From positions 1-64,000 of the forward strand of contig FN648572.1 in assembly GCA_000310025.1 (NCBI GenBank): a stretch of DNA of 64,000 nt, written 5' to 3'. This DNA comes from Ectocarpus siliculosus. Taxonomy: Eukaryota > Sar > Phaeophyceae > Ectocarpales > Ectocarpaceae. Below the pieces are notes generated by a model. The model was not told the DNA's origin, searched no databases, and was given only the letters and a program-made list of their open reading frames with translations. Positions 11,583-36,132 of this stretch are shown here, one piece after another; the stretch's first letter is position 1, and each line of letters begins with the position of its first letter. Made by a program: the position numbers and the translations under genes.

Positions 11583-14230
11583 GTGAGTCTCACGTGTTGT
11601 CCCCGAATATATCCTGCATCGTTTGGAATGTATGGGTGCATGCACCCATTTTGCCTTTTTTTTCGCGGTTTTTCTTTTCTAGGTCCGCCCTGTCGTTCGT
11701 TGTTCTCCCTTCTCACTTATAAGTACAATCGACCGCTGTGGCCGTTGTCGCTGTCTTGGGCCCCTCTGCACCCACCCAGTGCATCCGGGCTCTGCACCCC
11801 GTCAGCGATGCATTCATGCCTTGCTTTCTCCCGCACCTCGCACGCTGTTCAATTGTTTTCAAGCATTGATCAGTAGCCACATCCCTGTGCCCAAGGCAGC
11901 TGCTCGCATCCATGCTCTCCGCAATCTACCATCGACCGTGCTGCAGTCATCCAAGTGTACGCACACACATAATTCGATTATTGGATCACTGGTATAAATT
12001 ATCAGTGTATAGACTTAAAAAAGACTCGAAATAAGTCCAGTACCCAGCCGGTTTCCCTCCACTCACTGAAAAGACTCCACCACATCCCGTTCGACTGTGG
12101 GTACTGTATATCTCGAATGGGTAGTCTTTCTGTGTGTATTTTTATAATTCCTTCATTGTCTGTATATGCCCGGTCTTTCTCTCTCCTCTCTCTCTCCTCT
12201 CTCTCTCCCTCTCTCTACCACTCACTATACGTAGAAGCGGGTTCTTGTGTTTCGATCTTGAGTCGTCAGGTCGTCACCCGCCTGTGCAATCGCAAGATAT
12301 GACAACCATGGGTGACGCTTTTTCTCGACACCCGCACTCGTTCGGTCGCGCATGTTCCTCACTCCTCAACGTTCTCCCACATCCCAAATCACCCAGCCTT
12401 CGTTAACATGCGTACCGTACGTGGTAATATACGACACCCCCTGGACCGATTTTCAAAGCTGGATTACTCCACAAAGAGTGCACACGAAGGAAACGATAGA
12501 TTTTCGGAAAGCACTCGATGAGATGGCTTGAACGCTACCGTATACGGCGCTGCCATTCTTGCTGCTGTGGATCAATTGAGCTTTACACATCGATCCGGGG
12601 GGTGTGGTATCTTGTGTCACATACAGTATGTTGGAAGTCTGTGTCAATGGTGTCGGGATCGCGATTGCGTTTATCATGTGTGTGTGTTGTTGGCGGGTAT
12701 AGACACCGCTGTCGCGTTGTATCGCCTCCTGTCGTTTCGTCACTCATGGCAATCTTCTTCCTGTCTTGTAGTTCGAACGATTACGCATTTGCTCATGCGG
12801 GTATAGTCGCTGCTGGTGTTTCGGAGGTGTCGTTGGCATAGCCCGTCGGTCAAGATTGTCGTTCGGGTGGATGTTCCCTTTTGATTTCGTCTAGGCTAGT
12901 TTACGTGGGAAACTCATCTCGGGTACATATTCGGTGAAAAGCTGCGACATTAAAGAGCCGGTCAACATCGTTCAAAACACATCAACTTTTGAACACGAAC
13001 GTCGGGAAAAGCATGTCACACACAAACAACATCTAACCCCATGCCCACGTCTCATCGATCGTGTATTTTACGGGAAAAACGAAGTAGATGCATGTTGGAA
13101 TCGCTTCCTTAAGCGGGGCGGCGCAAGCCGCCGAAACCCCTTGTAGGTTTTACAAGTGACGAAGAGCGTGTGGTATCTTATGCAACCTATGCCAGGTACT
13201 CCGTATAAGCAGAGGATGGCATGTGTTGTGCCACTCAAGTACGTCCTGTAACGCCTGAACAGCGGTGACAGGTAATACGTGCATACCACACACAAGAATG
13301 CATGCACACCCACATGTAAGGTGGATAGAATCCGCGTCGGTGCTCCGTGGGGTTGTTCCAAGCGCGAGTGAAAGAGTTAGAACATTCAAAGGTACGACAT
13401 TGGCGTCCCTTCAGCCGGAGAATCCGGCAACATGCACTTGATTCTTTGCAAATCGGAAATCAACGGTGCCGCACCCCGGGGAGGGGATGAACTTTGGATC
13501 TGAATTGCGCGCCCGGAGTACGTACAAACAGGGGGGGGGGGTCGTATTTTTCCTGCCATTGAATACCCCGGGTAATGATATAACCCGGGGGGGAGAACAG
13601 CAACCTCGACACACATCGGCATATTCTGTGTTCCCGCAATGGACAATAAATGCGAAGTATGCATATCAGCATCCAATCCGATCGATACGGCCATGTGCCC
13701 TCTTTTCTTTTCGCTCCCGGCAGTCGAATGGTATTGGATACAGTATTCCGCGGCGTCCACATAGGAATTGCAATATATAAACCATGCATTTTACAAGGAC
13801 ACAGGGCTTCCACCCAGGAGTTTGATTTGTTGATTCCCACGGGGTTCGCAAGAGGACATGGTCGATGTTGGCCCCCGGTTGTATCTCCGATTCGATGGTC
13901 ACCCAACAAGCTCATCTCATGCACAGATGTATGCGAGTCCATTGCTTTCTCCCTCTGCCTATAAGGCCGTTTCCTACAGCAACGAAAAACCTCGGACAAA
14001 AAAATGCGCAATTTCCTGCTTGATGACTTCTTTGTTTCTGCAAGAGTTTCAAATTTTGGGTGGGCCCTATCTCACATTCTGGGTGTAGATCGTCATGGTT
14101 GGCCCGAGATGGTTCATTTGTTCAAATACATAGCGCCGGCAAAGTTCCCGCCCACAGCATACCACACTCTATCCGACCAACCCATGCATTTTTGAACCCT
14201 CCGCCGTTCCCGACCTCTGTCGCCCGGTGG
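11583..14230. other. No gene recognised; CT microsatellite and dispersed repeats
   Basis: CT-rich microsatellite at 12174-12216. GATACC-core repeat copies at 12425-12476 (plus) and 12578-12625 (minus) form an inverted pair about 200 bp long. Another reverse copy lies at 13150-13192. G runs occur near 13531-13541. ORFs on both strands at 13386-13964 have no coding character. Confidence 0.45.
12425..12625. repeat. Inverted pair of GATACC-core repeats, MITE-like
   Basis: 12425-12476 (ACGACACCCCCTGGACCGAT...) and the reverse complement of 12578-12625 share the dispersed core, giving a structure of about 200 bp with imperfect inverted ends. No target duplication is evident. Confidence 0.35.
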
Positions 14231-14826
14231 ATGCAGGACTCGGACGATGCCGTTCAACCCATGCAAGAGTTCGGTTCATAGTGCGACCCGGAGAGCGACC
14301 CCGGCAACGACTCGAGGGACGAAGAGCTGACCGTCGATCCCAACCGGTTCGACAACGACGACAACCGCGGCGAGGGGTCTGACGCAGGCAGTGTGGACCT
14401 TCTCGCGCCGCGGCCGCTCCCGGCGACGTTGCGCGGCAACGACGCCCGCTCGGTCCGCCTGCCTTCCAGGGGCGGCGGGCATGCAGGGCAGTCCTTCAGC
14501 CGCCGCGATCCCGCCAGCACCTCTTCGACCCAGGCGGACGGTCGTTCCGGTGCCTCGTCAAGCGGCGGAGCTGCCTCGGTCGTGCGCAGCTCTGTGACGG
14601 GCGGCGGCCGCCAGCACCTCTTCGGCCCACGCGGGTGGTCTTGCCGGTGCCTTTTCACGCGGCGGAGCTGCCTCGGTCGTGCACCGCGCTGCCTCCACCG
14701 GCGCCTCCGGCACTTCACCGTAAGCAGATCAACTCTGGAATGACCGGGGATGAGCTTTACGGCTGCCTCCTGATCGCTCATGTGAACGTGGTGGCTAGAT
14801 CAGGTCTGCTGGTCAACCCGCAGTTG
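14231..14826 (+). pseudogene. Decayed gene, 5' region: acidic Ser/Gly-rich protein with in-frame TAG
   Basis: ATG at 14231 (MQDSDDAVQPMQEFGS) runs into a TAG at 14279-14281. Beyond it the same frame continues as a highly acidic, Ser/Gly/Ala-rich sequence (CDPESDPGNDSRDEEL...). A duplicated GGAASVV motif shows a frame change near 14605, and another is needed near 14720 to enter the segment KQINSGMTGDELYG...NPQL, which ends at a strong donor, TTG|GTAAGT (14827). GC-rich codon use supports former or present coding. One stop plus two shifts suggests a pseudogene or consensus errors. Function unknown. Confidence 0.4.
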
Positions 14827-15556
14827 GTAAGTGATCGTTGTTTCGTACGATACCGTAGTATCCTTTGTCGTAGCCCCCCTCCATGGCAACCCCCCCCCTC
14901 CCCCAAAAAGAAAAGAAAAATACCGCCGGGGTACCAAAAATACATTGTCGTAGGCCCGGATGACCATAGTTTTTTTCGTACCCCCCCCACCCCTGTTTCT
15001 TGTGCGAGCCCCAGCGGGATGTTCTTCATTGACGTCAAAATTGTCCTACCGATAGGGGCATTCACACACAAACCCAGGCATTCCATTATGGGAGAATTTC
15101 CGTGTGTGCGGTTGCCGATTTGTCGTATAATAGTAGGTGGTTTGCTGTTGGTGTTGCTTCTAGGGTGCTCTGGCAGGTGCATCACAGCAGAGAACAGACA
15201 ACACCGCGGGTACTATTCGCCCCGTGGCCTTTTTTTGTTTTTATCGTTCTTCTACCGTTGTCTCAGTGTTTTATTCCAACAGGATGTTTAGGTATGTTTC
15301 CATATGGCTTGGTTTACAGCTTCCCCCTTCTTGTAGTAGCCAAAATCGGTTTACCAACACCTTGGATCTTGCCGAGTGTGTTTTTCACGTCTTAGATCCG
15401 CACCGTTCAACCATAGCGACGGCACCAACACAACAGAAGCACCGGTTACCCACAGGGTTCACTTGCAGACTTGCAGCGCTGAACTTGATCGCGCGTGTGT
15501 CTCTTGCCACCTCTCCGACCGTCCGTGTTCGCGTACTTGCACCCCCCGAAACCCAG

Positions 15557-15632
15557 GTGCCCATGATGCAAGGGCCGCCTCCCGTTCCGTCGGACAAGGA
15601 CGCGGCGAACAAGGTCCTACGCGGATCTGTGG
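15557..15632 (+). CDS. Downstream exon of the 14.2-kb gene
   Basis: A pyrimidine-rich stretch ends in ACCCAG (acceptor at 15555-15556). The exon encodes VPMMQGPPPVPSDKDAANKV and ends at GG|GTAAAT (15633). G/C at third positions is strong. It leaves phase 1, which does not match the preferred frame of the next exon. This is another sign of decay, or of a missed exon. Confidence 0.35.
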
Positions 15633-15700
15633 GTAAATGTACTTCTACGTAGATGGCTCACTTGCTGACCCATTTGTGTGCTGACCCTATTTGCATGTAG

Positions 15701-15874
15701 TTTGCGACACCAATGCTCCTCCACGCGGTCCGCGATATGGATTTTTTGCGTGTGTCCGAGATCGGCACGCACGAGTCGGCGGCGTGCAGGGCCACCAGGC
15801 AGATGCGGTCTTGGTCGAGGCTGATCGACGGGGGATTCCCTGACCGTCAAGCCCGAGCCTTCCGGGAGAGGTGA
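15701..15874 (+). CDS. Terminal exon, 57-residue charged C-terminus
   Basis: Acceptor TTTGCATGTAG (ends 15700). The preferred frame encodes 57 residues beginning FATPMLLHAVRDMDFLRVSE, rich in Arg and likely helical, and stops at TGA 15872-15874. Third positions are mostly G/C in this frame only. No family recognised. With 14231-14826 and 15557-15632 it appears to be the 3' end of one gene. Confidence 0.4.
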   Translation, partial: FATPMLLHAVRDMDFLRVSEIGTHESAACRATRQMRSWSRLIDGGFPDRQARAFRER

Positions 15875-16171
15875 ACACTTTTGCTGATATTGTGTTGCGA
15901 TGAAATAATAAATACTCTTACTTGTGTTTATTTTAGTCCTCCCACCATAAATAATTAACTGCCTGCTCCCGATACTTTAGACCAACCTTATTTCTAGCTT
16001 GACCAAGCCCAGGGCATTGTCCTATCTAGGTGTTCACACTTCTTTGTGGCTTTCCGACGTTCCTTGCCAGCGTCTCGCCTGTTGTCACAGTGGTATTAAC
16101 GCTATTGCTTAAGGTATCTCACTCATGTGTTAGCGTAACAAGCACTGGCTAGGGTTCAATTAGTTTCTTCC

Positions 16172-16286
16172 ATTTCATGGTCAGGTTCATCCATTTCATG
16201 GTCAGGTTCATGGTCTCTTACCATTTAAGTCAAGGGGGGACTAACAAGGGGGGACTAATCAAGGAGGGACTAGCAAGGGGGGTCTA
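16172..16286 (+). repeat. Two short tandem repeats
   Basis: CATTTCATGGTCAGGTTCAT occurs twice in tandem, then about four units of roughly 16 bp (AAGGGGGGACTAAC and variants) at 16230-16286. Confidence 0.75.
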
Positions 16287-16837
16287 TCTCCTGCATTGAC
16301 TCACAACTGGTTGCTGCTTAGCGATGTGGGTCAAAGTTCCTCTTCCGAGATTGGCCGTGTTACCAGTGAGCGATCACCCAAAACACGTGTTGAGGCGGAG
16401 CTCTAGAGGGGCTCCGCCAATGATTCAGGTACACCCTGGGGTATACCCTAGCCCTCCTCAAACCATCGTGAAATGGAATGATTCTCAGTATTTAGCGTCC
16501 GTTCATGCTACCGTGACACCCCCCCAGCATACATGTGTTGAAAAACACAAAATGCTGAGGAGGTAGGAGAACGTGCTCTTCTCCCTCCTCAGATCATACC
16601 ACGCCGGGAATATAGATCTGAAAAGGAAGGATGCCGCCCTCCCCAGGTTAAACCACAACAAATGGATTTGAACCTCGAGAGAACGGATGCCGGTGTGTTC
16701 GCCGTCGATGGTACATTGCTGAAATCATCGACCCCGAATGACGGCCGTGAGTACTTTGGCCGCCGTATACCGGACTCCTTGACGATGACGATCTTGGACT
16801 GAAGAAGGCGATCGTCCACTGAAGAAGGTGATCTTCC

Positions 16838-17113
16838 ACTGTTGAAGACGTTCTTCCGCAAACAGTCTCCACAGACCGACGACTATGACGATGATCTTGC
16901 ATCTTGACCGACGATCACCGACTGTTGAGGACGATCTTCCGCTGTAGAAGACGATCGTGGAACTCCTCAGGTGATATTCCAACTGTTGAAGACGTTCTTC
17001 CACCAACAGTCTCCACAGACCGACGACCATGACGACGATCTTGCATCGTGACCCACGATCACCGACTGTTGAGGACGACCTTCCGCTGTAGAAGACGATC
17101 TTGCAACTCCTCA
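16838..17113 (+). repeat. 144-bp tandem duplication
   Basis: ACTGTTGAAGACGTTCTTCC starts at 16838 and again at 16982. The two units share the phrase CAGTCTCCACAGACCGACGA and the GACGATC-rich remainder, with scattered substitutions. It lies just beyond the 3' end of the gypsy remnant and may belong to its untranslated region. Confidence 0.75.
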
Positions 17114-17185
17114 TTCGTGACACTGCCGTCACACCCCCCCCAGCTTCCCGCATGGAGGACGGAAGATGGCAGGCAGTGTACGACT

Positions 17186-17878
17186 TCACGATTCTTGAGC
17201 GGTGAGCGGTGGGAGTCTGGTGGCAAGATCCATTCCACGCCTTAGCTCCCTGCGATTGAGCTCTTCCCAATCTCCGTCGCTGAACTCCACTCTCCAATAC
17301 GGATCATAGAAATCGCAGACCTTCCCTCTGCTGAGCACAGTATTGTTCTCTTGATCCATGAGCTCCCGTCCAACCATGGTTCCACAGGGAAATTCCGCGA
17401 GAGCTTCGGTCCGCGTTGTTGCTACTTCGCGTTCTCCTCGCGACGGCGGTCCCGGGGGTCGTGGTGCGATATTCACCCCGTGAAAGTCTTCCCACAGGGC
17501 ATGAAAAACATCAAGTTGCAGAGGCGAGAAACTGTCCCTGGCAGTGTCTTCGGTTATCCACGGAGAAGTGGTGCCATCCTGATACTTTCCTCTATACTCC
17601 CATGCCCATGCGGACGCTATTCCTCCAGCGCCCTGGACCACCGGTCTATTCTCCAAATTATACAGAGGTGCCTCGACGACGGAGTCTTCAGCTAATCCTA
17701 AATCCGGCGACCATACAAAATGACCAAACTCATCTTCAAATGGATGTCTGATGTCTTGTGGTCGAGAATGAAACACGGCTTGAAGTCCGTGGCTGCCACC
17801 GTCCTCTGGCGGATTTGACGTCCATGCAGTCTTACAGTAAAGCTCAACCCCTCTCGCACGACGTGCGCGACTTGCCAC
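17186..17878 (-). pseudogene. C-terminal tail of the gypsy polyprotein, Tudor/SH3-like motif
   Basis: Beyond the frame change the useful part is about residues 60-230. It is proline- and acid-rich, then has RGKVCDFYDPYWRVEFSDGD followed by WEELNRRELRRGM. The pattern G-x-V-x-x-Y-x-x-Y-x-V-x-Y/F-x-DGD-x-E-E resembles small SH3/Tudor-type barrels placed after integrase in some protist gypsy elements. That comparison is an inference from the motif only. Confidence 0.5.
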
Positions 17879-18060
17879 GGTCCTGTGAAGTGGTCATGGG
17901 CAAGTTTAGGGTGGACGCCATCCCGGTAGAGTGTACTGGCGCTCTCCTTGACCAATACCTTGTCGCCCACCTTAGCCTTGGTGCCTGGTGATGCACGTTT
18001 GATCCTCGCGTTCTGGAGTTCGCGGTGTTTATTCCGATTTTCCTGTCTCACTTTTAGCAC
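17698..18060 (-). pseudogene. Integrase C-terminal GPY/F-like domain
   Basis: 120 codons. KVGDKVLVKESAST then HFTGPWQVAHVVREGLSFTV is the usual end of a gypsy integrase (GDxVxV...GPY/FxV). A frame change near 17760-17790 moves the reading into the following ORF. Confidence 0.75.
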
Positions 18061-18609
18061 TTACATTACTTCCACAGTCTTCCTTCTCGTTTCCTCCACC
18101 GTCCTTTCCAACGGCAATGCTGGGCCCGAGCTGTCTAGTGATGGCGACATGTGATCAAATGATGTCCTTGGCGCCCGTCCAAAGAGCAGGTGGTATGCTG
18201 ACTCTTTGTTTGGAAGGCTCTCATCCGGCGTCGTACGATGGGCCCAAGCGACCACTGCCACATACTCATCCCACCTGTTCGGCCATGCCTGGCAGAGCTC
18301 CGACAGCATCTCTTGCAGCACCGCTCCCATCCTCTCGACTGTTCCCTTTTCTCTAGGATGGTTGGTCGGTCCAAAGTCGAGGGATATTTTGAGCCACCGG
18401 CACAGGTGTTCCATGATCGCCGAGGTGTTTTCTGCCCCCGGATCACAGCGCACCGATATGGGTAGTCCGAAGATGAGGATGAGCTCCAACAATTTCTTGC
18501 TGACTCCCAAAGTTTCCTTCGTGGGAAGCGAGTAAGCGAAGAGGAACTTGGTTGCTCGACCCACTATCACCAGCAAGTACCTGTTGCCCTTGTTCGATGT
18601 CAACTTCAT
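18061..18609 (-). pseudogene. Integrase catalytic core (DDE)
   Basis: 182 codons. NRYLLVIVGRATKFLFAYSL corresponds to the first strand of the RNase H-like core, where the usual Asp (D.xT/S) is replaced by Gly-Arg (VGRAT). SVRCDPGAENTS carries the second catalytic Asp, and NHPREKGTVERMGAVLQEML the catalytic Glu. Downstream WAHRTTPDESLPNKESAYHLLFGRAPR is typical of gypsy integrases. The upstream end is broken by a frame change at 18607 and the ORF ends at a stop near 18061. Loss of the first catalytic Asp agrees with an inactive copy. Confidence 0.85.
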
Positions 18610-18944
18610 GTCAAGTCATCTCCAAGACTTCCCATGGACGCAAGAATCGTGCCGGTAACATGTAAATTTTTTTTTCTCCACTGTCGTTTTGTCATACGGC
18701 ATCGACATGATAACACGTAGTCTCGCACATCTTTCTTCAGCGATGGCCAGTGGTACTTGTCCGCCACAATGACAGTGGTGCGAGCTATCCCCGAATGTCC
18801 AAAGGTGCCATGCGCCAGCGCCAGAACTGCAGACACCAGCTTGTGAGGTAGGGCTACAACATGTGCCGCCCCTCTCGGCGCAAACCAAAGTAGACCTTGA
18901 TCGTCCAGGATGTAATCAGCTTGCTCTCCTTCGCCGTTCTCCAA
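18606..18944 (-). pseudogene. Integrase zinc-binding (H2C2) domain fragment
   Basis: 112 codons. The pattern LALAHGTFGHSGIARTT then YHWPSLKKDVRDYVLSC matches the HHCC domain of retroviral/gypsy integrases: two His in HxxxxxH form, the hydrophobic/WP segment, then a Cys pair. The pair is C-x-C (SCRCRM) rather than C-x-x-C, which may be damage. The ORF runs out at a TGA where the integrase core begins in another frame. Confidence 0.78.
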
Positions 18945-19848
18945 ATTGTCCCGGATGTTTCAACCTCAAGTCTTCCTGTTGGATCCTTTTTAGTTGGGCA
19001 CCGTCGCGCAAGACACGCTCCATTTGTTCCAACTGTGCGGAATGCCCTCGACAGAGGGGAATGTCGTTGTCTGGCCGTTCCAACCGTGGTTGCGATGTTT
19101 CTGGGTCGGACCTCGATGGTGTTGTAGAAGAGCTCGCTGTCGACACTGATCGTCTCTCTGGTTGTTGCACCACGGTCTCCTTCTCTGAAGAGGTCGTTGG
19201 CTTCGCTATGGTGGATGGAGTGAGTGTCGGCTGTCGAGCTCGTCGAGCCGCACTCCGAGTCTCCGCCGGGGTCACCTTAAAACGTGTGCGGTCGACGTGA
19301 CGGTCGACGGTAACTCCCCTAGTCACCACCGTCACCGCCGCATCTTCCTGATACAAGCTGGCCAAGTCGATGAGCAGATCTTCGTCTACTTGTTTGTTGT
19401 GATCTGTCTCTCCGGTCTTTGTACCATCCATTAGACGCTTCGGCCTTCCTTTCAGTCGTAGAAGATTCAGAACTTCTCTCAGCATTGGCGCTAATGTGTG
19501 CTCTTGCATCACTCGAGCTACATAACATCTTCCCAGAGTTGGTGGTACCTCGTAGTTGTCCCGGTTGGTGGTTAGCTTCACGTAATCTTCCCACGATAGC
19601 TCTTGCGCTTCCTGCAACGACCCTGCGTCGTTGGGATGTGCCGTAAAAGCTGTTGGTAGCGGTTTACGGCCCATGATGTGTTCCCTCGTAGCCGTCACCA
19701 CCAGCTCCTCAAACGAGAATATCTCCTTGTTCTGATGTCCCCGTTTCAAGAAGAAGCATCCCTGTCTTGTCAAAAAGGCACCGACCGTGGGTGTCGACGG
19801 TGCAGTTCTCTCCACATTCTTCTTCCACTGAGATAGTTTAGCTGTCAA
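18916..19848 (-). pseudogene. C-terminal half of the C5-DNA methyltransferase plus linker
   Basis: 310 codons continuing the MTase after motif VIII. Residues 45-60 lead into KPLPTAFTAHPNDAGSL and QEAQELSWEDY, resembling motif IX (PTxTAxP...xExAxLxxFP). NYEVPPTLGRCYVARVM resembles motif X (GNAVPPxLA). Residues 130-310 are a hydrophilic linker rich in Ser, Thr, Arg and Glu, as often found before gypsy integrases. The end overlaps the integrase zinc-binding ORF in another frame (18916-18944), so a frameshift separates them. The MTase call rests on motif order and spacing across both ORFs. Confidence 0.7.
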
Positions 19849-21077
19849 TTGGGATCCCCGCTCTTCTTGACTGCTACCACAAACACTCTCCGTTTTGTTG
19901 TGGGTATCCCGACTGCTGTCGCTGACAGAGACGCTGTCGCCGTTTCACAGCCTGCCAGGTGCAGTTCTGGGTGAAGGATGTTCTTCCATCTCTCTGACCC
20001 TGCAAAGCCTACTGGACTCTCCATTACCAGGATCTGGATGGGGGACGACACGAAAATCTGCACAATGTTGTCTGCATTTCGCCCTGTCCTCGCTCCTTCG
20101 TCTGGACCATCCTCAACGGCGCACGCATTGCCAATGAGGATTTCGGGTTTATACTCGAGGGTTGTGTGGCGTGTGTCGGACTCTAAAGGCTGACGAAGCA
20201 ATGTCGCATCACCGGCTCCTCCGTTGACTGTGATGCATTCCATGGTCTTCCAATCAGAGTCAATCACACATGTTACGTCCAGCATACCCTCAACGGCTTG
20301 TAATTCTCCACCTGCCCCTCGACCGAGAACAGCCGACCTCGGCTGTCTTAGTGCAAAGAGACCTTGTGCTCGTTGATACGCCGCTACGTACTCTTCGTCC
20401 CTCGGTGTCAACGCATCAGGTGTGATCTGCAACGCATAGAACACAATGAGATTCTCCACTTTTCTGTCATCGACCTCTGTTGGCCCCAGGTCAGCTAAGC
20501 AGATTCCATCGAGTTTGATGTCTTCCTTGTTGAGCATGACTAACTCCGGTTGTGAGTCACTTCTCTCCTCTTCTTCCGCAAGTTGTGATTGTGCCATCCT
20601 TTGGAGAGGAAGCCCTTCCAACACTGATCCTGCCGGCCCGCTCCTCCTTACTTCGCCATCTCCATCACCCGGTAATGTGGTGTCGACATCGGGTTCGCCA
20701 GAGCCTTTCCGCCGGAGTCTAAAGAGAGCGTCTGGAACGACATGGTCTGTTCCCCTTCTACACTTGAGGACCATATCATACGCCATCATCTTTAGCGCCC
20801 AACGGTGCAGCTTTGACGATAGGTTGTGGCTAGTGAAGAGCCACATCAGGGCCGCACAGTCCGTGATGAGAGTGAACTGACGGTGCTGAAGGTAAATCTT
20901 GGAATGGTCTAGTGCATACAACACTCCCAGAACCTCCCGATCGTTTGACGATAGTTTTTTCTCTGACCTGGACAACCTCTTACTGGCGTATCCGACCGGA
21001 GCCTCCCTGTTCTCCACCTGCTGTGTCAGGACTGACCCTGCCGCGATCAAGCTTCGATGGTGCTGGTAGAGTTCCAT
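19845..21077 (-). pseudogene. RNase H plus N-terminal half of a C5-DNA methyltransferase
   Basis: 410 codons. Residues 1-125 are gypsy-type RNase H: VGYASKRLSRSEKKLSSNDRE, the ITDCAALMWLF segment (TD of the active site) and VVPDALFRLRR. Residues 126-240 are a charged linker. From 251 the sequence follows the C5-MTase motif order: I, LGRGAGG (FxGxGG type, SAM binding); II, VIDSDWKTMECITVN; IV, PEILIGNACA with Cys319 in the place of the catalytic Cys of PPCQ; VI, VMESPVG in place of ENV; VIII, VGIPTTKRRVFVVA. The stop overlaps the next ORF's ATG by 4 nt, consistent with a 1-nt shift. The non-canonical IV and VI motifs make activity doubtful. Confidence 0.72.
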
Positions 21078-21345
21078 CCCTTCCGACCATGACCCCTAAG
21101 AACTCGAGCTCCGGCAATAGAAATTCTCTTTTTACGAAGTGACCTGTGAACCCTTTTCGTTTCAGGATGGTGAGGACCTTCTCCAGCAGTACGAAGTGTT
21201 CTTCCAACGTCTTTGTGTGGAGTGCGATGTTATCCAACCATTTCTCCAAGCTCTTGCTCAATAACTCTCGCAGATCATCACCCAACGTGGCTGAGAAGAC
21301 GGCGGGGATTGTGGTGATACACGCGCCCGACCAGGATGTGCCCAC
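20980..21345 (-). pseudogene. Reverse transcriptase fragment (C-terminal half)
   Basis: 121 codons align in pattern with the gypsy RT palm/thumb: a degenerate motif before the active site (TTIPAVFSATLGDDLRELL), the active-site region EKWLDNIALHTKTLEEH, and the thumb pattern ELEFLGVMVGRDG. The catalytic YxDD reads WLDN here, so the second Asp is Asn and polymerase activity is unlikely. The match to RT stops near 21340; fingers and upstream palm are absent. The frame shifts into the RNase H ORF near 21000-21070. Confidence 0.8.
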
Positions 21346-22026
21346 AGCGCAACGTAACTGCTACGCTACACGCCTACCGCAGCCAACTGTTCATCGCTGC
21401 AACAACGCTGCACGATACGGCTGTGTGTTCGCCCGTAGGATTGTCCCTTCTTCATCCGCCAGACCCTTACTACTCTTCGCGCATGCGGTTATTTGCGCAT
21501 TCAAGGATGGATCGATAGTTAGCGGTGTCGACTGTCCCCTGCCGTCATTGGTCATTAAGCAACAAGAGTTCTGCACATACTTGTCTGGTACAATTATTTA
21601 AAGGGCCCCGTTTCTCGGCAGCAGCAACAGACGGTAGACGGGGTATACGCGAGATGGTGCGGAATTCGAGTGAGCTTCTACATATAGGTCAGGATCCATC
21701 TCCCCCCGAACATCGAAAAACGTTACCGAAATGACCGCCATCCTGTGGGTGTGGTACAGTTTATGTACATTATGAGTTTGGTTGCAGAGACCACCTGCCA
21801 TGTAGAAATATTCCTTACACGCTATTGTACGGCACACACCCGGCTAGCAAGCAAAGCTGGAATGGCAGTGAAAAGTCACTTCGTTCCGGTTGTGTGTTGA
21901 CAGGAAGGGCGCATTTCATAGTTCGTGTCATCCGTGCAAGTCGCCGCAATTCCTTGTGTGAGCGTGACCAGATTAGTTGCGACTACGCACCCCATGCGCT
22001 CCCACTCGTCGCTGAATGCCGCACAG
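21346..22026. other. No gene recognised
   Basis: Sequence changes character beside the truncated RT. I see no coding signal, LTR or clear repeat in this stretch. Confidence 0.4.
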
Positions 22027-22100
22027 CCTTACTGGAGAGGAGATGATCACGAGAGTGGGCGCATTCAAGGACGACGAGGGCAAGGTCCACCTCATACCGG
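22027..22100 (+). CDS. Short candidate internal exon
   Basis: Lies between the acceptor CCGCACAG (ends 22026) and the donor G|GTGAGG (22101). It encodes LTGEEMITRVGAFKDDEGKV followed by HLIP, with third positions mostly G/C. Codon use and splice sites match the exon at 23382-23521, so both may be one gene. No family recognised. Confidence 0.33.
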
Positions 22101-22417
22101 GTGAGGGTCCGCGGGCGTGTGACTTTGCATGTGATGTCTGTGTACCACGACAAAATAGTGATATGTCGTCATGGGAATCTCGTCACGCAACTCGACACGG
22201 AAGAGGCACGGTAAATATTCGACCCCCCCTTCCCTACCCGCGGCCACAGCAGTCTGTGAGCCACCTTTATTCTATTCATTCTACTCTGCCGATAAAACTG
22301 CGTGGCTGGCATGCCATTTTAGAGGTGCCCATAGAGAAGGACCAGCACGACAAGGCGTCTGCGTACTCCATGCATGACGCAATTCCCGACCCGATGTGTC
22401 TTGCCCGGTAACCCTTA

Positions 22418-22640
22418 CCGACGATAACACAACGCCGTTAGTGGTTTTACCGCCACCGCCAAACACAGTCGATACCGCCGATAAACGCATAACCGCCGAC
22501 CACAAGAACTGTAGCCTCCATATGGCGATACCGCCGGAATTTACGGCCGTTTTTTTGTTGGACCGCCGCCGAAGTTGATGCCGCCAGAAAGGGCAATACG
22601 GCATACCGCATAAAAGCAAAGAAACCAAATGGCAATACCG
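22418..22640. repeat. TACCGCC-rich degenerate repeat
   Basis: The words TACCGCC, CCGCCGA and GATACCGCC recur at irregular short spacing (at least ten times). No regular unit. Confidence 0.5.
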
Positions 22641-23381
22641 GCGGAAAAGAGTCCGCCAAAAGAAACGTACAGAGTAATTCCTTGGTCGAAACGAAAGGGA
22701 AGAGGCCACATAAGCCCAGCATCATCGAGAGGGTTGATGCACAACCTCCAAAACGGTCTGGTTTTGCACCCTGCTTCTGCTCCCGCTTTGTCTCTGTGAC
22801 TGTGTGCGTGTCGCTCTCAGTCTGACTCTCTCTGTCCTGTGATTTATTGTGAACCATACACGTCTGTCGGCGGGCGGGGAACAAAATAAATCGTGAAGGT
22901 GAAAGAAAAAAAAAATCCGGGCCTTTCTTGGTGTCTGTCATGTTTATAACCGCAAGCTTACCAGCGGCAGCAGCAGCAGCAATGTGTTAAGACTACATCT
23001 TACAATTCAATGATTAGGATGCTCTGATCACGCAGCGGGATAGTCGGTAATGGTAGCAGTTAGTGTCGATAGACGGGTGCCAGACAGATCTCGACAGCTG
23101 TTGAGTCTTGGCGAAATCCGCATGTAAGTTATTCAGGCAAAGCGCGCATGGTAAAGAAGCGGCGCGCAGACTGTTCGCCCCAGTCTTGTGCCGTTTATCG
23201 TTCTATTACACTTACCACCTATCGTTCGTCATGACAACGCGCGCACGCACGTTCAAAGGAAAGCGGACCTCGGATTGGAGGCGGCCCTTCATGAGCAGGG
23301 TCCATTCACGAACAAATTGTAATTTATTTACTGACACAGTAGCGTCATCCCCGCCCGTCCACCCACGCCCGCCCTGGTAAG

Positions 23382-23521
23382 ACTCGAGGATGAGCACCCT
23401 CGGGAAGATGAGCTTGGTGCCAGGAGAGATGGACAACCCGCCCACGGCGAGGGACGTCATGGGCCCACTCCTCACCGAGTTCGTCAAGAAGGGGACTGCA
23501 GAAGGCCTAGATTCTCAAATG
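23382..23521 (+). CDS. Candidate exon of a hypothetical gene
   Basis: Bounded on the left by a possible acceptor (GGTAAG, ending 23381) after a pyrimidine-rich stretch, and on the right by CAAATG|GTGCGT (23522). The coding frame begins DSRMSTLGKMSLVPGEMDNP and ends with a helical-looking FVKKGTAEGLDSQM. Strong G/C at third positions. It might join 22027-22100 upstream and the acidic ORF at 23928 downstream; I cannot prove the linkage. Family unknown. Confidence 0.36.
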
Positions 23522-23927
23522 GTGCGTTCGTAACTGGGCACCAGGAACAAGGGACAAAGTACAGCACGGCAACGTACTTTGACCGTCTGTGACCCTTAGC
23601 AAAGAGTGGTAACGACATTGAATACAGACTAAGTAGTTGTGAATCAGGTAAAGGCGAGTAACGCCTCATATTACAAAAACCCTAGGAAAGAAAAGGAAAG
23701 CCTCCAGATTGCAAAACGCCCGAGTAAGGATGATCCCAATAACCCTTGACGCCGTGTACATTAAGGCACGACTTACGGGGTTTCAAATAGGGTTTATGCG
23801 ACGGCCGAAACGACGTTATCGGTAGTCGGTGGGAATCCTGTGGTTTGTTGAGCCCGTCGCCGCTCTTCCTCACCAAGTTTCACACCACCCTTCCCTAACG
23901 TCACTGCGGAAACTGTTTCGCGCTACG

Positions 23928-24797
23928 ATGCCCCCTACGCGACGGCTTTCCTCAACGCAGCGCGACACGCTTGTAAGGGCGTCACGCACAAGGTCAGGGT
24001 CAGCTTCGCCCTGTCCCTGGTCCACCGGCAAAGGGAGCTGCTTCAACCTCGACGTCCTGAGCGACTCGGACCGGGGTACTGACGACGGTCGCTCCTATAG
24101 CTCGGACAGCTCATCAAGCGATGAGGGCGACGGCGCCCAGGAGGACAGCGACAAGGAGGTGACCGAGGAGGAGGACAGCGACGTGGAGGAGGTCGACGAG
24201 GAGGATTCGAGCGGCGGTAGCATGTCGCGGAAGTCCGGGGCAAGGAAGGGGGCGACAGGTACTTCCGCCGGTAGGCCTGCAGCCGCATCCGCGAGGAAGG
24301 CGAGCAAGCATCCCGGCGCGGCCGCAGACATCTTGAATCTCGCGGAGGATGGCCCTGCAGGGCGCCCTGCTCAGGGAAGCTCTTCTAAGAGCGCCGCAGC
24401 AGCAAACAAACATCCCACCTCAAAGCGCGCTGGAGCAGCCGGTGCGCCAGTGGATCTGGCTTCAGACAACAGCAAGAAGAAAGAGGGCAGCGCCGACGGG
24501 GGAAAGGGCAAGAAAGGCAAGGCCGACGGGGGCAAGGGCAAGAAAGGCAAGGGCGACGGGAGCAAGGCCAAGAAAGGCAAGGGCAAAGCGGCCAAGGACA
24601 AGGGCGACAAGGGGCTAATGCATGCACGGCTGACCGAGAGCCGTGAGGATAAAGCAACGCTAGATACAATAGCGAAGCGGACTTCGCGCGAGGCCGAGGA
24701 GGAGAGGCAGACGGCCTACAAAGCGTTTCTCGAGGCGGAGCGGGTCAGGGGGAGCCGGGCAAAGGCTCTCGAGGCCCGGGCCCACAAAGGGATCGAG
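23928..24797 (+). CDS. Acidic/lysine-rich low-complexity protein, main exon
   Basis: ATG at 23928 (MPPTRRLSSTQRDTLVRASR) is chosen over an in-frame 23829 start because the preceding 33 codons lack the composition of the rest. Order: basic Ser/Arg N-terminus (1-60), Ser/Asp/Glu tract (about 65-105), Ala/Ser/Lys-rich middle, GGKGKKGKADGGKGKKGK-type repeats (about 190-230), then an Arg/Glu/Ala-rich helical region likely to form a coiled coil (240-290). It ends at GAG|GTATTT (24798). The unspliced frame runs to 24974, where composition changes. Such charge-segregated proteins are often nuclear or chromatin-associated. No named domain. Confidence 0.55.
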
Positions 24798-25079
24798 GTA
24801 TTTACGACAGAAGGTTGCCCAACGTTTGTTGCATGCGGCACCAGGGTCCCCTCTATGGCAACCGATCATGCAATAATTTCTCGATATTTCCTCGCGGCCA
24901 AGGGGGACGACAGCACGGCTCCCGAACCCTGGATCCCACATTTTTGTCACAGTTGCCTGTATGCCGCGCCATAGTCACGTTGCGCGAAACATGCGATACT
25001 ACACGACCCTCCACCAACCTATACTCTTCTATAACACCTGCTGCCGCCCCCACCGTCCATGCCTGCGTGGACTACGAAG

Positions 25080-25205
25080 GAGGCGAAGCAGGCGGCGCAG
25101 GTCGCGACCAAGGACAAGTCTGACGCCAAGATGAAACGACTGCAAGCGAAGAAGGTGCCGAACGTGTACTCCTTCCTGCGGAAGGAAGCGTCAACTGCAT
25201 ATTAA
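25080..25205 (+). CDS. Terminal exon of the 23.9-kb gene
   Basis: From a possible acceptor (CTACGAAG, ending 25079) the frame encodes 41 residues beginning EAKQAAQVATKDKSDAKMKR and ending SFLRKEASTAY, then TAA. Phase 0 matches the donor at 24798, and the Ala/Lys-rich helical character continues the preceding coiled coil. An in-frame ATG at 25059 would allow it to be read alone. Confidence 0.42.
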   Translation, partial: EAKQAAQVATKDKSDAKMKRLQAKKVPNVYSFLRKEASTAY

Positions 25206-26101
25206 CTAGCGGGGCAAGGAACGGGGTTACAGTAGGGCAGTCGAACACCCCCCGTCCCGAGCCTCGCGCCGAAACTATGCACGCTGTCCGCGTTATCCAA
25301 AGTGACGTTGGCGACAGCGGGAGAGTTGGCTACTCGTGGACGGGCCAATCGTCTTGTTAAGTGGTCAGGAATGGTGTCGCTGTCGCATAATTCTCGCGTA
25401 GAGTACACAAGGTCGTGCTCCTGACCGTTGTCCTTCATGCTGTCGCTTTCGCCATCGACCCCCCTCGTGTTGCTGCCAGGATACCAACGCCAAGACGTCT
25501 ACCACTACCGCAAGTTCCGACCATGCGTCAGCATCTACAGGTTTCAAGCGAAAGGTACGACAACGCATCCAGCATCATCATGGGAGTCTATAGAAAAGCA
25601 GGAACGTTTGCACCACTCGAGCGCGTGTTGCCTGTTACTACGTTGGTTTATTTTGGTGCTCAGTCTTTCGGTGCCAAACGTTATACGAGCAGGTAGAATA
25701 GGACCGAACAACATGGTTCTGCGGGAAGCGGTTTAGTCGACCTAGTCTTGTGCTCTGATTGGACATGGATCAATGCATAACGTCCGTCAGTCGTGATCTT
25801 GGTCACAATGTTTCATGCCACCTTCGACTTGTCAGGCTGGGCTTCTATGCACAGAGTACAGCACCACCGTACTGGAAAATCACCGGCCGGAGCCGAACTT
25901 CCACGGCCCAACGTTTACATTCCCTATTTCCCTCTATCCAGATACCGTGTTTCCTACTACCATGACTGCCACAGCACTTACAGAATGATCCTAGCCTCTC
26001 TCTACCCAAGAAATGTGACTGGACTATACGAAGGGCCACCCCAGGCGGAGCCTACTTCACTGCTCTGCTTCTTGCGTCCCCGCTTATTTTCCGTCAAACA
26101 G
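25206..26101. other. No gene recognised
   Basis: No convincing exon. The last 60 bp is pyrimidine-rich and leads into the acceptor at 26101. Upstream exons of the 26.1-kb gene probably lie here or further left. Confidence 0.35.
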
Positions 26102-26188
26102 GATGTTACTCCCGCTGCCCCTCCGGTCGGTTCGGACAAGAAGAAAAAGAAACCCAAGAAGAGCAACAAGCCCGACGCCAACGTCCAG
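26102..26188 (+). CDS. Short lysine-rich internal exon
   Basis: Acceptor TTCCGTCAAACAG (ends 26101) and donor CAG|GTAAGC (26189) bound 29 codons beginning DVTPAAPPVGSDKKKKKPKK and ending SNKPDANVQ. Phase is 0 at both ends and joins cleanly to 27136. The Lys run is nuclear-localisation-like. An internal exon of an unrecognised gene. Confidence 0.45.
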
Positions 26189-27135
26189 GTAAGCTCAGCG
26201 AGGGGCTCTCCTAAGTGCTGCATTCCCACTTCACATTCATTGGCTACACATGGCTACGTGGCTGATATATGACTGCAGCAAGAGCAGAGCGAAAGGAACG
26301 TTGCCCAAACAATGCGAGTGTTTCATTAGCGCTCTTCCGTGGTCGGGACGGTGTGTATTTCGATCGTCGTTCGAACAATTTTCGGGTTATCGTTATAGCT
26401 ATTGTGGCGACAGTCCCCCTAAGATCGTGGTAGGGCTACATACATCCAGACAGCGTCGCCTACAGATAGGGAAACACCGGGGTGTTGCTCTTGATTTTTT
26501 TTTTTTTTCCTGGAACCCACGTTGCTCATGTGTCGCTGCCGAATCCGTTATTGGGTTCGCTCGTCGCGCTAAGGCCAAAGCTGCCCCTTACCCTCCTCAA
26601 CTGTGCTAACGTCGGAGTGTGGGAATAACGAGCCCTCAGCCTTGTGCCCTCCCATCCGCGTAAAGATAAAGTGTGCACCCAATGGGGGTTCGACCTTACT
26701 AGAAGTTTCGACGTCGTGTTCAAGATACGGTATACCGGTGCGACCGGGCTCATGCGTCGCGGAAAATTTGCACAACCCTACAATCGATGATATAGTTAAT
26801 TGGCCGTAGTACACATTTCCTTCAACCACAGCCCCACACACACCCTCTCTGCGGGTCGCAGTCAAGACCACTGCGCTGGGGGAAGTCACCTCCACGGGGT
26901 GCAAAATCCACAACGCCCTGTCCCCATGCTATACAGCACACTCCACGCCCCCAAACCGCGGTTCAAGCGCCTTTGCTATTTGCAGCCAGACGCACCTGGA
27001 AGTGGTGACCCACGCATACTGCACCCGCTTGGCTCCGGTGTCGAATACACAGACGCTACGCACGCACGAACTATTAGTCTTCGCCGGCCCTCAGCTCCAC
27101 GCGTCCCCCCACCCCCCCTCCTACGTCCCTCTCAG

Positions 27136-27306
27136 ATACCTGGGTTAGACCCGGCACAGGTTGCAGCTCTGATGCAAATGATGCAACGTCTACAAGGCGG
27201 GGGGAGCTCCTCGGGAACCGTACGTGACGCGTCATCCGAATCGGATTCGGACTCAGCCTCGGTCGATTCGACGGCCAACAAGGGACATCCAGCTGGTGAG
27301 AGGTAG
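27136..27306 (+). CDS. Terminal exon, Met/Gln-rich then Ser/Asp-rich
   Basis: A strong polypyrimidine tract ends in CCCTCTCAG (27127-27135). The exon encodes 56 residues: IPGLDPAQVAALMQMMQRLQ (amphipathic helix), a Gly/Ser linker and an acidic Ser/Asp tract. It ends with TAG at 27304-27306. An alternative donor GTACGT lies after SSSGT. The chromovirus inserted 23 bp after the stop, probably in the 3' untranslated region. Confidence 0.5.
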   Translation: MPGLDPAQVAALMQMMQRLQGGGSSSGTVRDASSESDSDSASVDSTANKGHPAGER

Positions 27307-27325
27307 ACGTTGGGACACAACTGCA

Positions 27326-27329
27326 ATAC
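27326..27329. other. Target-site duplication ATAC, left
   Basis: ATAC directly precedes the left LTR and recurs directly after the right LTR at 36480-36483. Confidence 0.8.
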
Positions 27330-27655
27330 TGAGGACACTGGCTATTGTCGGAGACAGATGCCGGTGCCGTGGCAGTATTATCCCACTGCCAGGGGAAGGC
27401 TATTTCCTCTCGTGATGTGTAAACGAGGAGAAGAGGGTAGAAAGAGAGAGCGGCCATAGCGGCAGAGGGAGAGGAGAGTCGAAGACTCTCCGCTTCCACT
27501 TTCGGCAAGTGGCCAGGGACTTCGGAAGATATCCATCTCCGACGGTGCATTTCCTGTCACTCTCCTTGTGACAAGATACCCCGAGGGAGCCATATCTTCC
27601 TACACTTTGTATGTGCACACATGGTTGGTTATACTCCTGACAGGTGTCCTCCACA
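27330..27655 (-). repeat. 3' LTR of the chromovirus (left in window)
   Basis: 326 bp, apparently identical to 36154-36479. On the plus strand it begins TGAGGACACTGG and ends TCCTCCACA. Flanking bases diverge immediately outside both ends. Confidence 0.95.
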
Positions 27656-27670
27656 TCACCCCCCCCTCTA
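27656..27670 (-). other. Polypurine tract
   Basis: On the minus strand TAGAGGGGGGGGTGA lies immediately upstream of the 3' LTR, the usual position of the plus-strand primer. Confidence 0.7.
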
Positions 27671-27949
27671 TGCGCCACAAGTCCATCTGTGCTAAAGATG
27701 TGCTTTTGGCGGCCATAGACATGAGTGGCTCATGGAGACACATGTATTGGAGTTAACCTACCTGGTACAACATCATCAACTCGGCCTGATTATCATACAA
27801 CGCGTGTTAAAAAACACGGAGTCTTCAGACAGAGTAGTGATAGATGTGGTCCATACTAGTATAGTCTAGAAAAAAAAAATTGTGGGTACTGGGCTATCAA
27901 GATGACAGCTAGTGTACTAAAATATTTTCTCTATTCATCATCGAAAAAT

Positions 27950-28170
27950 AAGATATTGATGGAGGATGAACTTGTAATGAGGTGACCCTCTGGCAAGTTT
28001 ATCTGTTCACCAAAACATAAGATATTGATGGAGGATGAACTTGTAATGAGGTGACCCTCTGGCAAGTTTATCTATTCATCACAAATAAGATATTGATGGA
28101 GGATGAACTTGTAATGAGGTGACCCTCTGGCAAGTTTATCTATTCATCGAAAAATAAGATCTATTCATAA
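27950..28170 (-). repeat. 69-bp tandem repeat in the element's 3' region
   Basis: Three units starting at 27951, 28020 and 28088 (AGATATTGATGGAGGATGAA...) with few changes, then a partial fourth. It lies between the end of pol and the polypurine tract. Confidence 0.9.
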
Positions 28171-28390
28171 AAAAATAAGATCTTGGGACAGCGGTGGTAT
28201 CATTCAATTCTCCTCGCGAGTGTTTCCCCAAACACTTCAAAAATAGGTTGTTTCCACTGGATACAACCAACCACCGTGGCTACTGGTCCTGTGCTAAATA
28301 TATATATATAACACAGAATAATAGTAGTATAAATTTGTCTCAAGTCTCGGAAAAGATAGACATGGCAACTGTTAGGAACGATAGAATAAA

Positions 28391-30559
28391 TCAATCGTTT
28401 AATTTCCGGGCCCTAGTTCGTTTTCGTTTGCTAGTACGGCAGGGCAATTGAGTATCACTCTGTGTCGTAGCAGAACGCGACTTGGGTAATGGACCCTCCT
28501 TTAGGAGCCTTCTTCGTCGCTTCTTGGTTTTGTTCGGTGGCTCAGAGCCACTTTGCGTTGCCAATTTCCGACTTAAAGGTTCTTGAGGAGTAGCTGCCTG
28601 TTTTCGTTTTCGTTTCCCTGTTTTACTGGGTGATTTTGGGTCTCCCTGTTCAACTGGGGCACGAGACGACGATATATTAGGCTGCAATATTTCCAAACCA
28701 CAACGGATTCGGTAGGCAGATATCATTTCTTGACATTGTGGAATTTCGTCTGCTCTATATTCAAGGTCTGACTCAGGGCCGTAGCCTCGAAGACGCAAAC
28801 GATACTTGTAGTTGTACGGGGTTTTCGGCCCCTTACCACTCTTATGACTTACCACTTTGTCAACGGCGTAGGATTCAATTTTCGGTTGAGCTTCGTCGGG
28901 ATGGTCTAGCTCGGGCAACGGAATCTGGCGTCCTAAGAAAAACTCGGAAAGCTTATCAAAGTCTGGCGCAGGTGGTGTTTTCCTCGCGTAGTACTGTTTA
29001 ATGTGGGCTAAATGGACCGAAACTTCTCGAGTTTCGTTCTGGCGTCTCACTCTATATACCACCGGTGATAATTTAGAGCAGATGACGTAAGGTCCTCTCC
29101 ACGGTAACAATAATTTCGGATTTGGTCCATCCGAATCCTGGTATGGGCGGTACACAAGTACTAGATCACCAGGTTTAAACACAGGGATAGGGCGCAGTTT
29201 AGCGTTCTTAGCAGCTTGTTTTTTTGTGCGTTCCGATAGGTTACGGCGCGCTAGTTCAAAAGCAACCTGTAGATTTTCCTGTGTTGTTTTAGAGAATTCC
29301 TCGGTATTCGCTGTTGTTCCCACATGAGGGATGCCGAGGATAATGTCAACTGGTAGTCGTGGCTTCCGACCAAACATAAGAAAGAATGGTGTTTCATGCA
29401 TGGTGGAGCTAAATGACGTGTTGTAAGCCAGTTGGACAAAAGGCAGCAATGATGCCCAGTTATCGCGGTTCATGGAACTATGCATGGCAAGCATTGCGTG
29501 CATGGTAGCATGTACTCGTTCTGAGACAGAATTACCCTGCGGACGGTATGGTGTCGTGCGGGTTTTCTTGTAGTTCAGAATACGCTGTAATTGGTGGACT
29601 ACACTGTTCTCAAATTCAGGTCCTTGGTCGGAATGCAACAGTTCAGGCGATCCAAAGATGCTGATGATGCGGTCGATAATGGCCTGAGCGACAGTGATTG
29701 CTGACTTGTTGGGAATCGGAGTCAACACGGTGAATCGGGTTAGGTGGTCCATCATGGATAGGACATGTTTGCACCGTACCCCGGCGGCTGAAACTGATTC
29801 TACTTTATATTCAACTAGGTCAACCGAAATACGTTCAAACGGTCTTTGTACTGGTACATGTCCCGTTGGTAATTTGTTCCGGTTGTGGGCTGTTTTCCGA
29901 CGTTGACAGGCTTGGCATTCTTGACACCAAGTACGGACGTCCCGATTCATGGTTGGCCACCAGTACTTTTGGCGAATCTTCTCATAAGTCGGTCTAGACG
30001 CTAAGTGGCCCCCAGATAATACGTGGTTATGATAGGCGTGTAGCACTAGTCCGGTAAGGGCGTAAGGCAACACCAATTGGTCACTAAACGTACTACGTTT
30101 CCGGAGGTAGCCTGGTAAATACGATTTAAACAGCAATCCATCACGCACGAAGTAGTACGACATGGAAGTGGTTGTCTCGTCATCAGGTAATTGAGCGTCA
30201 GGTTTTGTAAGATAGTCGATATACTTGCCATATTCAAGAGCTTGTTTTTCACGCAAGATATCGCGGTTAATAGTTTCAAATACGTTGGTCGCGCTAATAT
30301 AAACTGATTTCTCAGCGAATAATTCGCGATCACTTTGAACCGGTCGCAAGTTTTCCAAACGATCTGCAGACACTTGGTACGGACGTGGTGGGACATTTGA
30401 ATGCAGCGCAGGGTCATCAGGCACATTCCTACATATCGGTGCAAGTTGCGGTGCTTCCAACTGTTGTTGGTGATCGAACGCAAACAACCGAGATAGGGTG
30501 TCTGGGACTACATGTAACTTTCCCGGCTTGTGTCGCACTGTAAAGTCAAAGGACTGCAA
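28391..30559 (-). CDS. pol: Chromovirus pol, C-terminal part: RNase H end, integrase, chromodomain
   Basis: 722 codons, open to the contig edge at 30575. Residues 1-25 are the RNase H end (HVVPDTLSRLF). The integrase H2C2 zinc domain is at about 174-218 (HNHVLSGGH...CQECQACQ). The catalytic triad D247, D311, E347 has the standard DD35E spacing. GPYVICSKL near 490 is the GPY/F motif. Residues 562-617 (YAVDKVV...YRLRLRGYGPESDLEY) resemble a chromodomain, which in chromoviruses directs integration to particular chromatin. The tail 640-722 has three basic clusters (GKRKRKQ, KKRRRRL, SKRKRTRARK), probably nuclear-localising. No damage is seen in this copy. Confidence 0.92.
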   Translation of the reverse strand: MQSFDFTVRHKPGKLHVVPDTLSRLFAFDHQQQLEAPQLAPICRNVPDDPALHSNVPPRPYQVSADRLENLRPVQSDRELFAEKSVYISATNVFETINRDILREKQALEYGKYIDYLTKPDAQLPDDETTTSMSYYFVRDGLLFKSYLPGYLRKRSTFSDQLVLPYALTGLVLHAYHNHVLSGGHLASRPTYEKIRQKYWWPTMNRDVRTWCQECQACQRRKTAHNRNKLPTGHVPVQRPFERISVDLVEYKVESVSAAGVRCKHVLSMMDHLTRFTVLTPIPNKSAITVAQAIIDRIISIFGSPELLHSDQGPEFENSVVHQLQRILNYKKTRTTPYRPQGNSVSERVHATMHAMLAMHSSMNRDNWASLLPFVQLAYNTSFSSTMHETPFFLMFGRKPRLPVDIILGIPHVGTTANTEEFSKTTQENLQVAFELARRNLSERTKKQAAKNAKLRPIPVFKPGDLVLVYRPYQDSDGPNPKLLLPWRGPYVICSKLSPVVYRVRRQNETREVSVHLAHIKQYYARKTPPAPDFDKLSEFFLGRQIPLPELDHPDEAQPKIESYAVDKVVSHKSGKGPKTPYNYKYRLRLRGYGPESDLEYRADEIPQCQEMISAYRIRCGLEILQPNISSSRAPVEQGDPKSPSKTGKRKRKQAATPQEPLSRKLATQSGSEPPNKTKKRRRRLLKEGPLPKSRSATTQSDTQLPCRTSKRKRTRARKLND

Positions 30560-30575
30560 AGCGATTGCCCATCTG

Positions 30576-30675
30576 NNNNNNNNNNNNNNNNNNNNNNNNN
30601 NNNNNNNNNNNNNNNNNNNNNNNNNNNNNNNNNNNNNNNNNNNNNNNNNNNNNNNNNNNNNNNNNNNNNNNNNNN
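30576..30675. other. Assembly gap of 100 N
   Basis: Exactly 100 N. The sequence left of the gap (29745-30575) reappears right of it (30676-31505), so the flanking contigs overlap and no real sequence needs to be missing. Confidence 0.97.
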
Positions 30676-34057: not shown

Positions 34058-34165
34058 ATACGGGGCTGAGTCAACTCGGGCATTCTGTGCTACATGAGTT
34101 TCCTCAGCTAATGGTGTGCTATCGACCTGTCTCCCTACGAGCGAGGAGTCCCGTGAAGGGCCCCG

Positions 34166-36080: not shown

Positions 36081-36132
36081 GTTGTTTCTCTTTTTCTTGG
36101 TTGTCTCTCCTCGCTACAGTAGCACGGCGGAG

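Follow-up and report, generated by a model that had tools for sequence, protein, structure and literature searches.

We analyzed a 64,000-nucleotide window of the Ectocarpus siliculosus genome (bases 1-64000 of contig C117; the host genome searched comprises 189.46 Mb in 492 contigs). Its minus strand carries the remnant of a Ty3/Gypsy retrotransposon with a cytosine-C5 methyltransferase-like (MTase-like) domain between RNase H and integrase (Table 1). An earlier note on this DNA had read RNase H, a C5-methyltransferase (C5-MTase), and the H2C2 and core domains of integrase in this order across shifted frames. The Pfam matches agree with that order for RNase H, H2C2 and the integrase core, the last below its cut-off. 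The tail of the reverse transcriptase (RT) matched RVT_1 in the Pfam scan with an E value of 0.0024, below the curated cut-off, and tblastn with the protein P0006 indicated that ~97 amino acids (aa) are gone between this tail and RNase H. P0006, from Ectocarpus sp. CCAP 1310/34, shares 84% identity with the element (217 aa, RNase H and connection part), and its C-terminal end corresponds to the start of the MTase-like domain. The Tudor-like family PF21743 was also below cut-off in P0010, P0011 and P0013-P0015 (E 8.3e-4 to 1.5). No direct repeat resembling a long terminal repeat (LTR) was found for the window copy within positions 12000-30000. With RT truncated, the stretch between RT and RNase H deleted and pol split across several frames, the window copy is dead.

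Table 1. Features of the Gypsy remnant, in window coordinates
Feature	Position	Strand	Basis
Ty3/Gypsy remnant, 5' truncated inside RT, several frameshifts	16082..21320	-	blastn against the genome's other copies
Reverse transcriptase, C-terminal part	21049..21354	-	tblastn, Ectocarpus sp. P0006 residues 211-305, 84%
RNase H	20778..21053	-	PF17917, E 2.9e-22
C5-methyltransferase-like domain, two frames (19848-20513 and 19468-19857)	19468..20513	-	family profile; homology via relatives
Motif I, LGRGAGG, S-adenosylmethionine (SAM)-binding loop by homology	20307..20327	-	family alignment
Motif II, VIDSDW, acidic residue retained	20250..20267	-	family alignment
Motif IV, IGNAC replacing PC(Q); Cys codon 20121-20123	20121..20135	-	family alignment
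Motif VI, VMESPV replacing ENV, Glu retained, N absent	20010..20027	-	family alignment
Motif VIII, TTKRRVF (PTTKRRVF)	19881..19901	-	family alignment
Integrase H2C2 zinc-binding domain	18687..18848	-	PF17921, E 1.1e-13
Integrase core	18355..18600	-	rve, E 1.4e-6; 29 bits, under the cut-off of 32.6
Integrase C-terminal part	17698..18060	-	collinearity by eye with polyproteins P0010 and P0014; no Pfam family
Tudor-like C-terminal domain	17240..17326	-	PF21743, E 8.6e-4; 19.5 bits, under the cut-off of 27.2

We assigned the inserted domain through its relatives rather than through the window frames. A family profile built from ten relatives, with the window excluded, matched the window frame 19848-21095 with an E value of 2.2e-105 and the frame 18919-19944 with an E value of 2.1e-64. 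The two frames join at profile positions 224 and 222, and the next-best window frame had an E value of 0.016. The earlier note had proposed a check with PF00145, counting a silent profile over this stretch as evidence against its own claim, and PF00145 did not match either of the two window MTase frames at E ≤ 1. Among 13 scanned relatives, one passed the PF00145 cut-off (P0004, 23.2 bits over 22), and five out of eight excised domain pieces matched it weakly (E ≤ 5); it was the sole Pfam family matching several members. Profile-profile comparison of the family with C5-MTases was significant, with a confident alignment only around motifs VI-VIII. Forty-seven of the 50 best fold matches to the predicted domain model were C5-MTase chains, many of which represent a small set of proteins (HhaI, DNMT1, MET1, DNMT2). 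The remaining matches were 3r9x_B, 1eiz and 2oo3 in one list and 8i9v_CS, 1eiz and 3dou in the other. The predicted fold is consistent with that of a C5-MTase catalytic domain. On this profile and fold evidence, drawn from the relatives, we identify the domain as a C5-MTase homologue.

Direct sequence searches of the Protein Data Bank (PDB) returned little. The family alignment of eight pieces, used as a profile, yielded just two weak and unrelated matches, one to a nucleoside phosphorylase (E 0.13) and one to a spermidine synthase (E 0.27), and phmmer with P0003 gave none. No relative was recovered by tblastn from viral_contigs (6 pattern matches) or genome_contigs (52), where the patterns lay in RNase H and say little about the MTase domain.

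The domain is not confined to the window. A 247-aa stretch of the window gave at least 64 genomic matches at E ≤ 0.001, sorted into at least 45 places: at least 17 that are 81-100% identical (lineage A) and at least 28 more divergent ones at 30-70%. The earlier note had suggested searching for copies with intact frames and LTRs. Uninterrupted Pol frames are present on C147 (lineage A, 1807 aa), C98 (lineage B, 1649 aa, beginning inside RT) and C30 (lineage C, 1943 aa), and all have the order RT-RNase H-MTase-like-H2C2-rve, followed by a weak Tudor match. We left out one candidate open frame (L075, C476) in which 5303 out of 9901 bases are N; L077 also contains N. The C30 copy (772550-784061) has paired 635-bp LTRs that are identical at 629 out of 635 positions (99%), with six differences that are all transitions. 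It also has a GTTG target-site duplication and a 733-aa frame ahead of pol. For the C98 and C147 copies, no LTR pair was found within the DNA examined. Two proteins from other sources, P0009 and P0010, share the domain order of the open copies, P0010 beginning inside RT and P0009 having no Tudor match; the order of RT, RNase H and integrase was found in P0009, P0010 and P0013-P0015. Within this genome, the MTase-like domain thus occurs in three or more diverged lineages, and relatives elsewhere have it too. In FastTree phylogenies, the RT-RNase H and MTase topologies have five proteins in common and recover the same two splits among them; for the integrase tree, only the P0013-P0015 pair is clearly shared with the other segment trees. 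The simplest reading of these sequences is that the domain was captured once, long ago, and then co-inherited. The Gypsy capture proposed in the earlier note is supported by profile, fold, copy number and open frames.

Some copies have further peculiarities. The RT deletion of the window copy (~21050) recurs in L043 (C114) and L044 (C143) and is absent from the C147 and C183 copies; since three copies have it in common, it may be that a derivative with the deletion was itself copied, or that the locus was duplicated. Two 132-nt direct repeats (window 16838-17113) directly follow the Tudor frame on its 3' side, and related sequence is present in L073, L052 and L075. A tandem array of ~106-bp units extends from the 5' end of the open-frame copy on C147 to the contig end (L073:6262-9305). 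Of the 17 lineage A places, 12 are on contigs shorter than 1 Mb, possibly a sign of repeat-rich regions. Two lineage C places, L079 (C53) and L080 (C129), have a stop in common and equal identity and may be one insertion counted twice.

Canonical C5-MTases have PC(Q) at motif IV and ENV at motif VI. The Dcm/phage alignment has PC and EN at these motifs; L036 and L037 were left out of the ten fetched phage loci, L030 was kept though annotated as a truncated gene, and the close Dcm relatives L002-L028, which came from viral contigs, were left out. We read the motifs at 31 loci out of the 45 places, leaving out 14 weaker ones. None of the 30 copies covered at motif IV has PC and none of the 29 covered at motif VI has ENV; EN occurs in one (L044). 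Lineage C, to which the LTR-flanked copy with its uninterrupted pol belongs, has no cysteine at motif IV. The earlier note had listed motifs I, II, IV, VI, VIII, IX and X. We could recognize I, II, VI and VIII, but motif IV reads GNAC, motif VI has no N, and motifs IX and X align in order at a permissive setting and are not significant alone.

To assess selection, we computed the ratio of nonsynonymous to synonymous divergence (dN/dS) by the Nei-Gojobori method with 14 out of 17 loci of lineage A, 6 out of 9 of B and 5 out of 5 of C. Pairs with synonymous divergence (dS) ≤ 0.02 or fewer than 60 codons were left out, and the pairs are not independent. The median for the MTase-like domain was 0.52 in A (78 pairs), 0.20 in B (15 pairs, with saturated dS, median 1.8) and 0.46 in C (9 pairs), and the maximum for any pair was 0.94. 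The corresponding medians were 0.32 (78 pairs), 0.23 (10) and 0.07 (3) for RT/RNase H, and 0.37 (59), 0.11 (12) and 0.46 (9) for integrase. These ratios indicate that the MTase-like domain is under constraint, which is weaker than that on RT/RNase H in A and C. We also sought a CpG-specific footprint in the three lineages and found that CpG was not depleted beyond GpC. The observed/expected (o/e) ratio of CpG was 0.79-0.88 in A and C (GpC 0.78-0.88) and 1.01 in B (GpC 0.92).

The only PF00145 locus that we found in the host genome looks DNMT2-like, its motif IV exon being closest to DNMT2 structures. Brown algae are reported to have no DNA methyltransferases except DNMT2, in contrast to their outgroup Schizocladia ischiensis, in which DNMT1 is present and CG methylation (5mCG) is high (PMC13076208); 5-methylcytosine (5mC) is reported to be negligible in Ectocarpus (PMC12477816). 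The earlier note had suggested that the element could methylate its own copies. Self-methylation is disfavored by these reports, and the loss of PC and ENV, the missing motif IV cysteine of lineage C and CpG levels that are not depleted relative to GpC all argue against it.

A second Gypsy element, of another lineage, lies at window 28391-36113 on the minus strand, with a weak gag, RT/RNase H, H2C2 and rve; the MTase-like family profile did not match it. A 100-N gap (30576-30675) breaks this element, with a seemingly repeated stretch on either side.

We consider it probable that an ancient C5-MTase capture has been kept in Gypsy Pol after decay of its canonical active site, and that it now has a non-catalytic role in binding nucleic acid or SAM. 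A C5-cytosine-methyltransferase domain would have been captured long ago by a Gypsy Pol, at a site between RNase H and integrase. With PC and ENV lost, the captured domain would no longer perform standard cytosine methylation and would instead serve the Pol particle in another way, most likely by binding complementary DNA (cDNA) or RNA and perhaps SAM. Together with the Tudor-like tail, it could help steer the integration complex to chromatin, by analogy with the non-catalytic DNMT3L. More tentatively, and with slightly less than even confidence, we suggest that a pseudo-methyltransferase serves retrotransposition without 5mC in a DNMT2-only host, across Gypsy lineages, and may be all that remains of a DNMT lineage lost from the host itself.

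Several observations weigh against the favored non-catalytic reading. The cysteine of NAC at motif IV is present in 23 of 30 copies, that is, 15 of 16 in A, 8 of 9 in B and intermediates (23 of 25 for these groups together) and 0 of 5 in C. The motif VI glutamate is present in 27 of 29 (15/15 in A, 7/9 in B and intermediates, 5/5 in C). Because both residues are mostly present, the domain might be an active, if unusual, enzyme: a cytosine methyltransferase whose motif IV (GNAC) is non-standard and which would methylate element cDNA or RNA, as proposed for other algal retrotransposon DNMTs. The GxGG loop and the acidic motif II are also mostly retained, dN/dS is below 1, and Symbiodinium retrotransposon DNMTs are able to methylate CG (PMC5890265). 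Moreover, CpG in A and C falls under the window flanks (0.99-1.07) and TpG in lineage A is higher than in the flanks (1.17-1.27 vs 1.12-1.13), so that a weak methylation footprint in the element copies is possible. We nevertheless regard an active enzyme as unlikely, given that no examined copy has PC or ENV, that lineage C, with its young LTR-flanked copy, has no motif IV cysteine, that CpG is not below GpC, and that 5mC is reported to be negligible in Ectocarpus (PMC12477816).

The elevated dN/dS relative to RT/RNase H in A (0.52 vs 0.32) and C (0.46 vs 0.07, the latter from 3 pairs) suggests that constraint may be weak. The domain could then be a passenger, a slow-decaying fold that acts as a spacer between RNase H and integrase. 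In pairs with P0013, the MTase segment has the lowest identity of the three (32-34% vs 43-52%), and P0011 has no MTase-domain core, although this protein comes from a gene model, in which the missing part may be a predicted intron. We find a passenger quite unlikely, since lineage B has a dN/dS of 0.20 (with saturated dS), frames remain open in long polyproteins, and motifs I, II and VI are mostly retained across lineages that are only 32-46% identical. Further points concern the homology itself. PF00145 is silent on the window frames and on six full-length polyproteins (P0009-P0011 and P0013-P0015, no match at E ≤ 5), and the PDB-sequence profile search gave only unrelated matches. The default hhalign alignment spans only 65 columns around motifs VI-VIII, and 23-27 of 200 column shuffles score as well as the motif I-IV segment alone. 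The IX-X and target recognition domain (TRD)-X segments alone are equalled by 51 and 61 of 200 shuffles. The predicted model has a mean predicted local distance difference test (pLDDT) score of 42.8, and its fold matches have low TM-scores (0.12-0.19 by query length). That the stretch is an unrelated spacer, or has a different class I methyltransferase fold, is still highly improbable and already largely refuted by the preponderance of C5-MTases in the fold search, the significant profile comparison and the absence of any other Pfam family that matches several members.

If the favored reading of a decayed, non-catalytic capture holds, the family would be a case, open to testing, in which a transposon puts a methyltransferase fold to a use other than methylation. 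A DNMT-fold domain with dN/dS below 1 that mostly lies under the PF00145 cut-off also suggests that surveys based on PF00145 can miss captured domains. DNMT3L is a host regulator with a C5-MTase fold that does not have a working active site; the domain described here belongs to an element, and the two are likened only by fold and by the non-catalysis presumed for the element domain.

We compared the family with published retrotransposon captures. The survey of de Mendoza et al. 2018, a count of PF00145 genes, described DNMTs carried by Symbiodinium LINE and DIRS elements and by a Klebsormidium Gypsy element (PMC5890265). KnitGypsy-Dnmt3 of Klebsormidium nitens likewise has a Gypsy-type Pol with a C5-MTase domain under purifying selection. 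It differs in being a recognizable Dnmt3 with conserved key residues, in having DIRS-like repeats and in residing in a host with a plant-like methylome (PMC5890265); our family is mostly below PF00145, has altered motifs IV and VI, has ordinary LTRs (one copy), and resides in a host whose one detected PF00145 locus looks DNMT2-like. SymbioDIRS-Dnmt3 and SymbioLINE-Dnmt of Symbiodinium are also C5-MTases borne by retrotransposons, but these are DIRS and LINE elements with conserved key residues in heavily CG-methylated hosts (PMC5890265). The present family does not have the conserved catalytic residues of these retrotransposon DNMTs. The earlier note had anticipated a further case or a relative of the dinoflagellate and charophyte captures; the lineage is different from those of de Mendoza et al. 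2018 (PMC5890265). In the literature searched, mostly open-access texts without supplements, we found no stramenopile Gypsy element reported to carry a C5-MTase domain. Closer to our element, Gypsy-10_Ec32 of Ectocarpus bears a Tudor domain at the C terminus of a brown-algal Gypsy Pol, whereas our Tudor match is below cut-off; the available part of its description does not mention a C5-MTase domain (PMC12477816). Compared by description rather than sequence, the two are perhaps of the same lineage. Comparable captures have been published for other algae, and the present lineage and the decay of its active site appear to be new.

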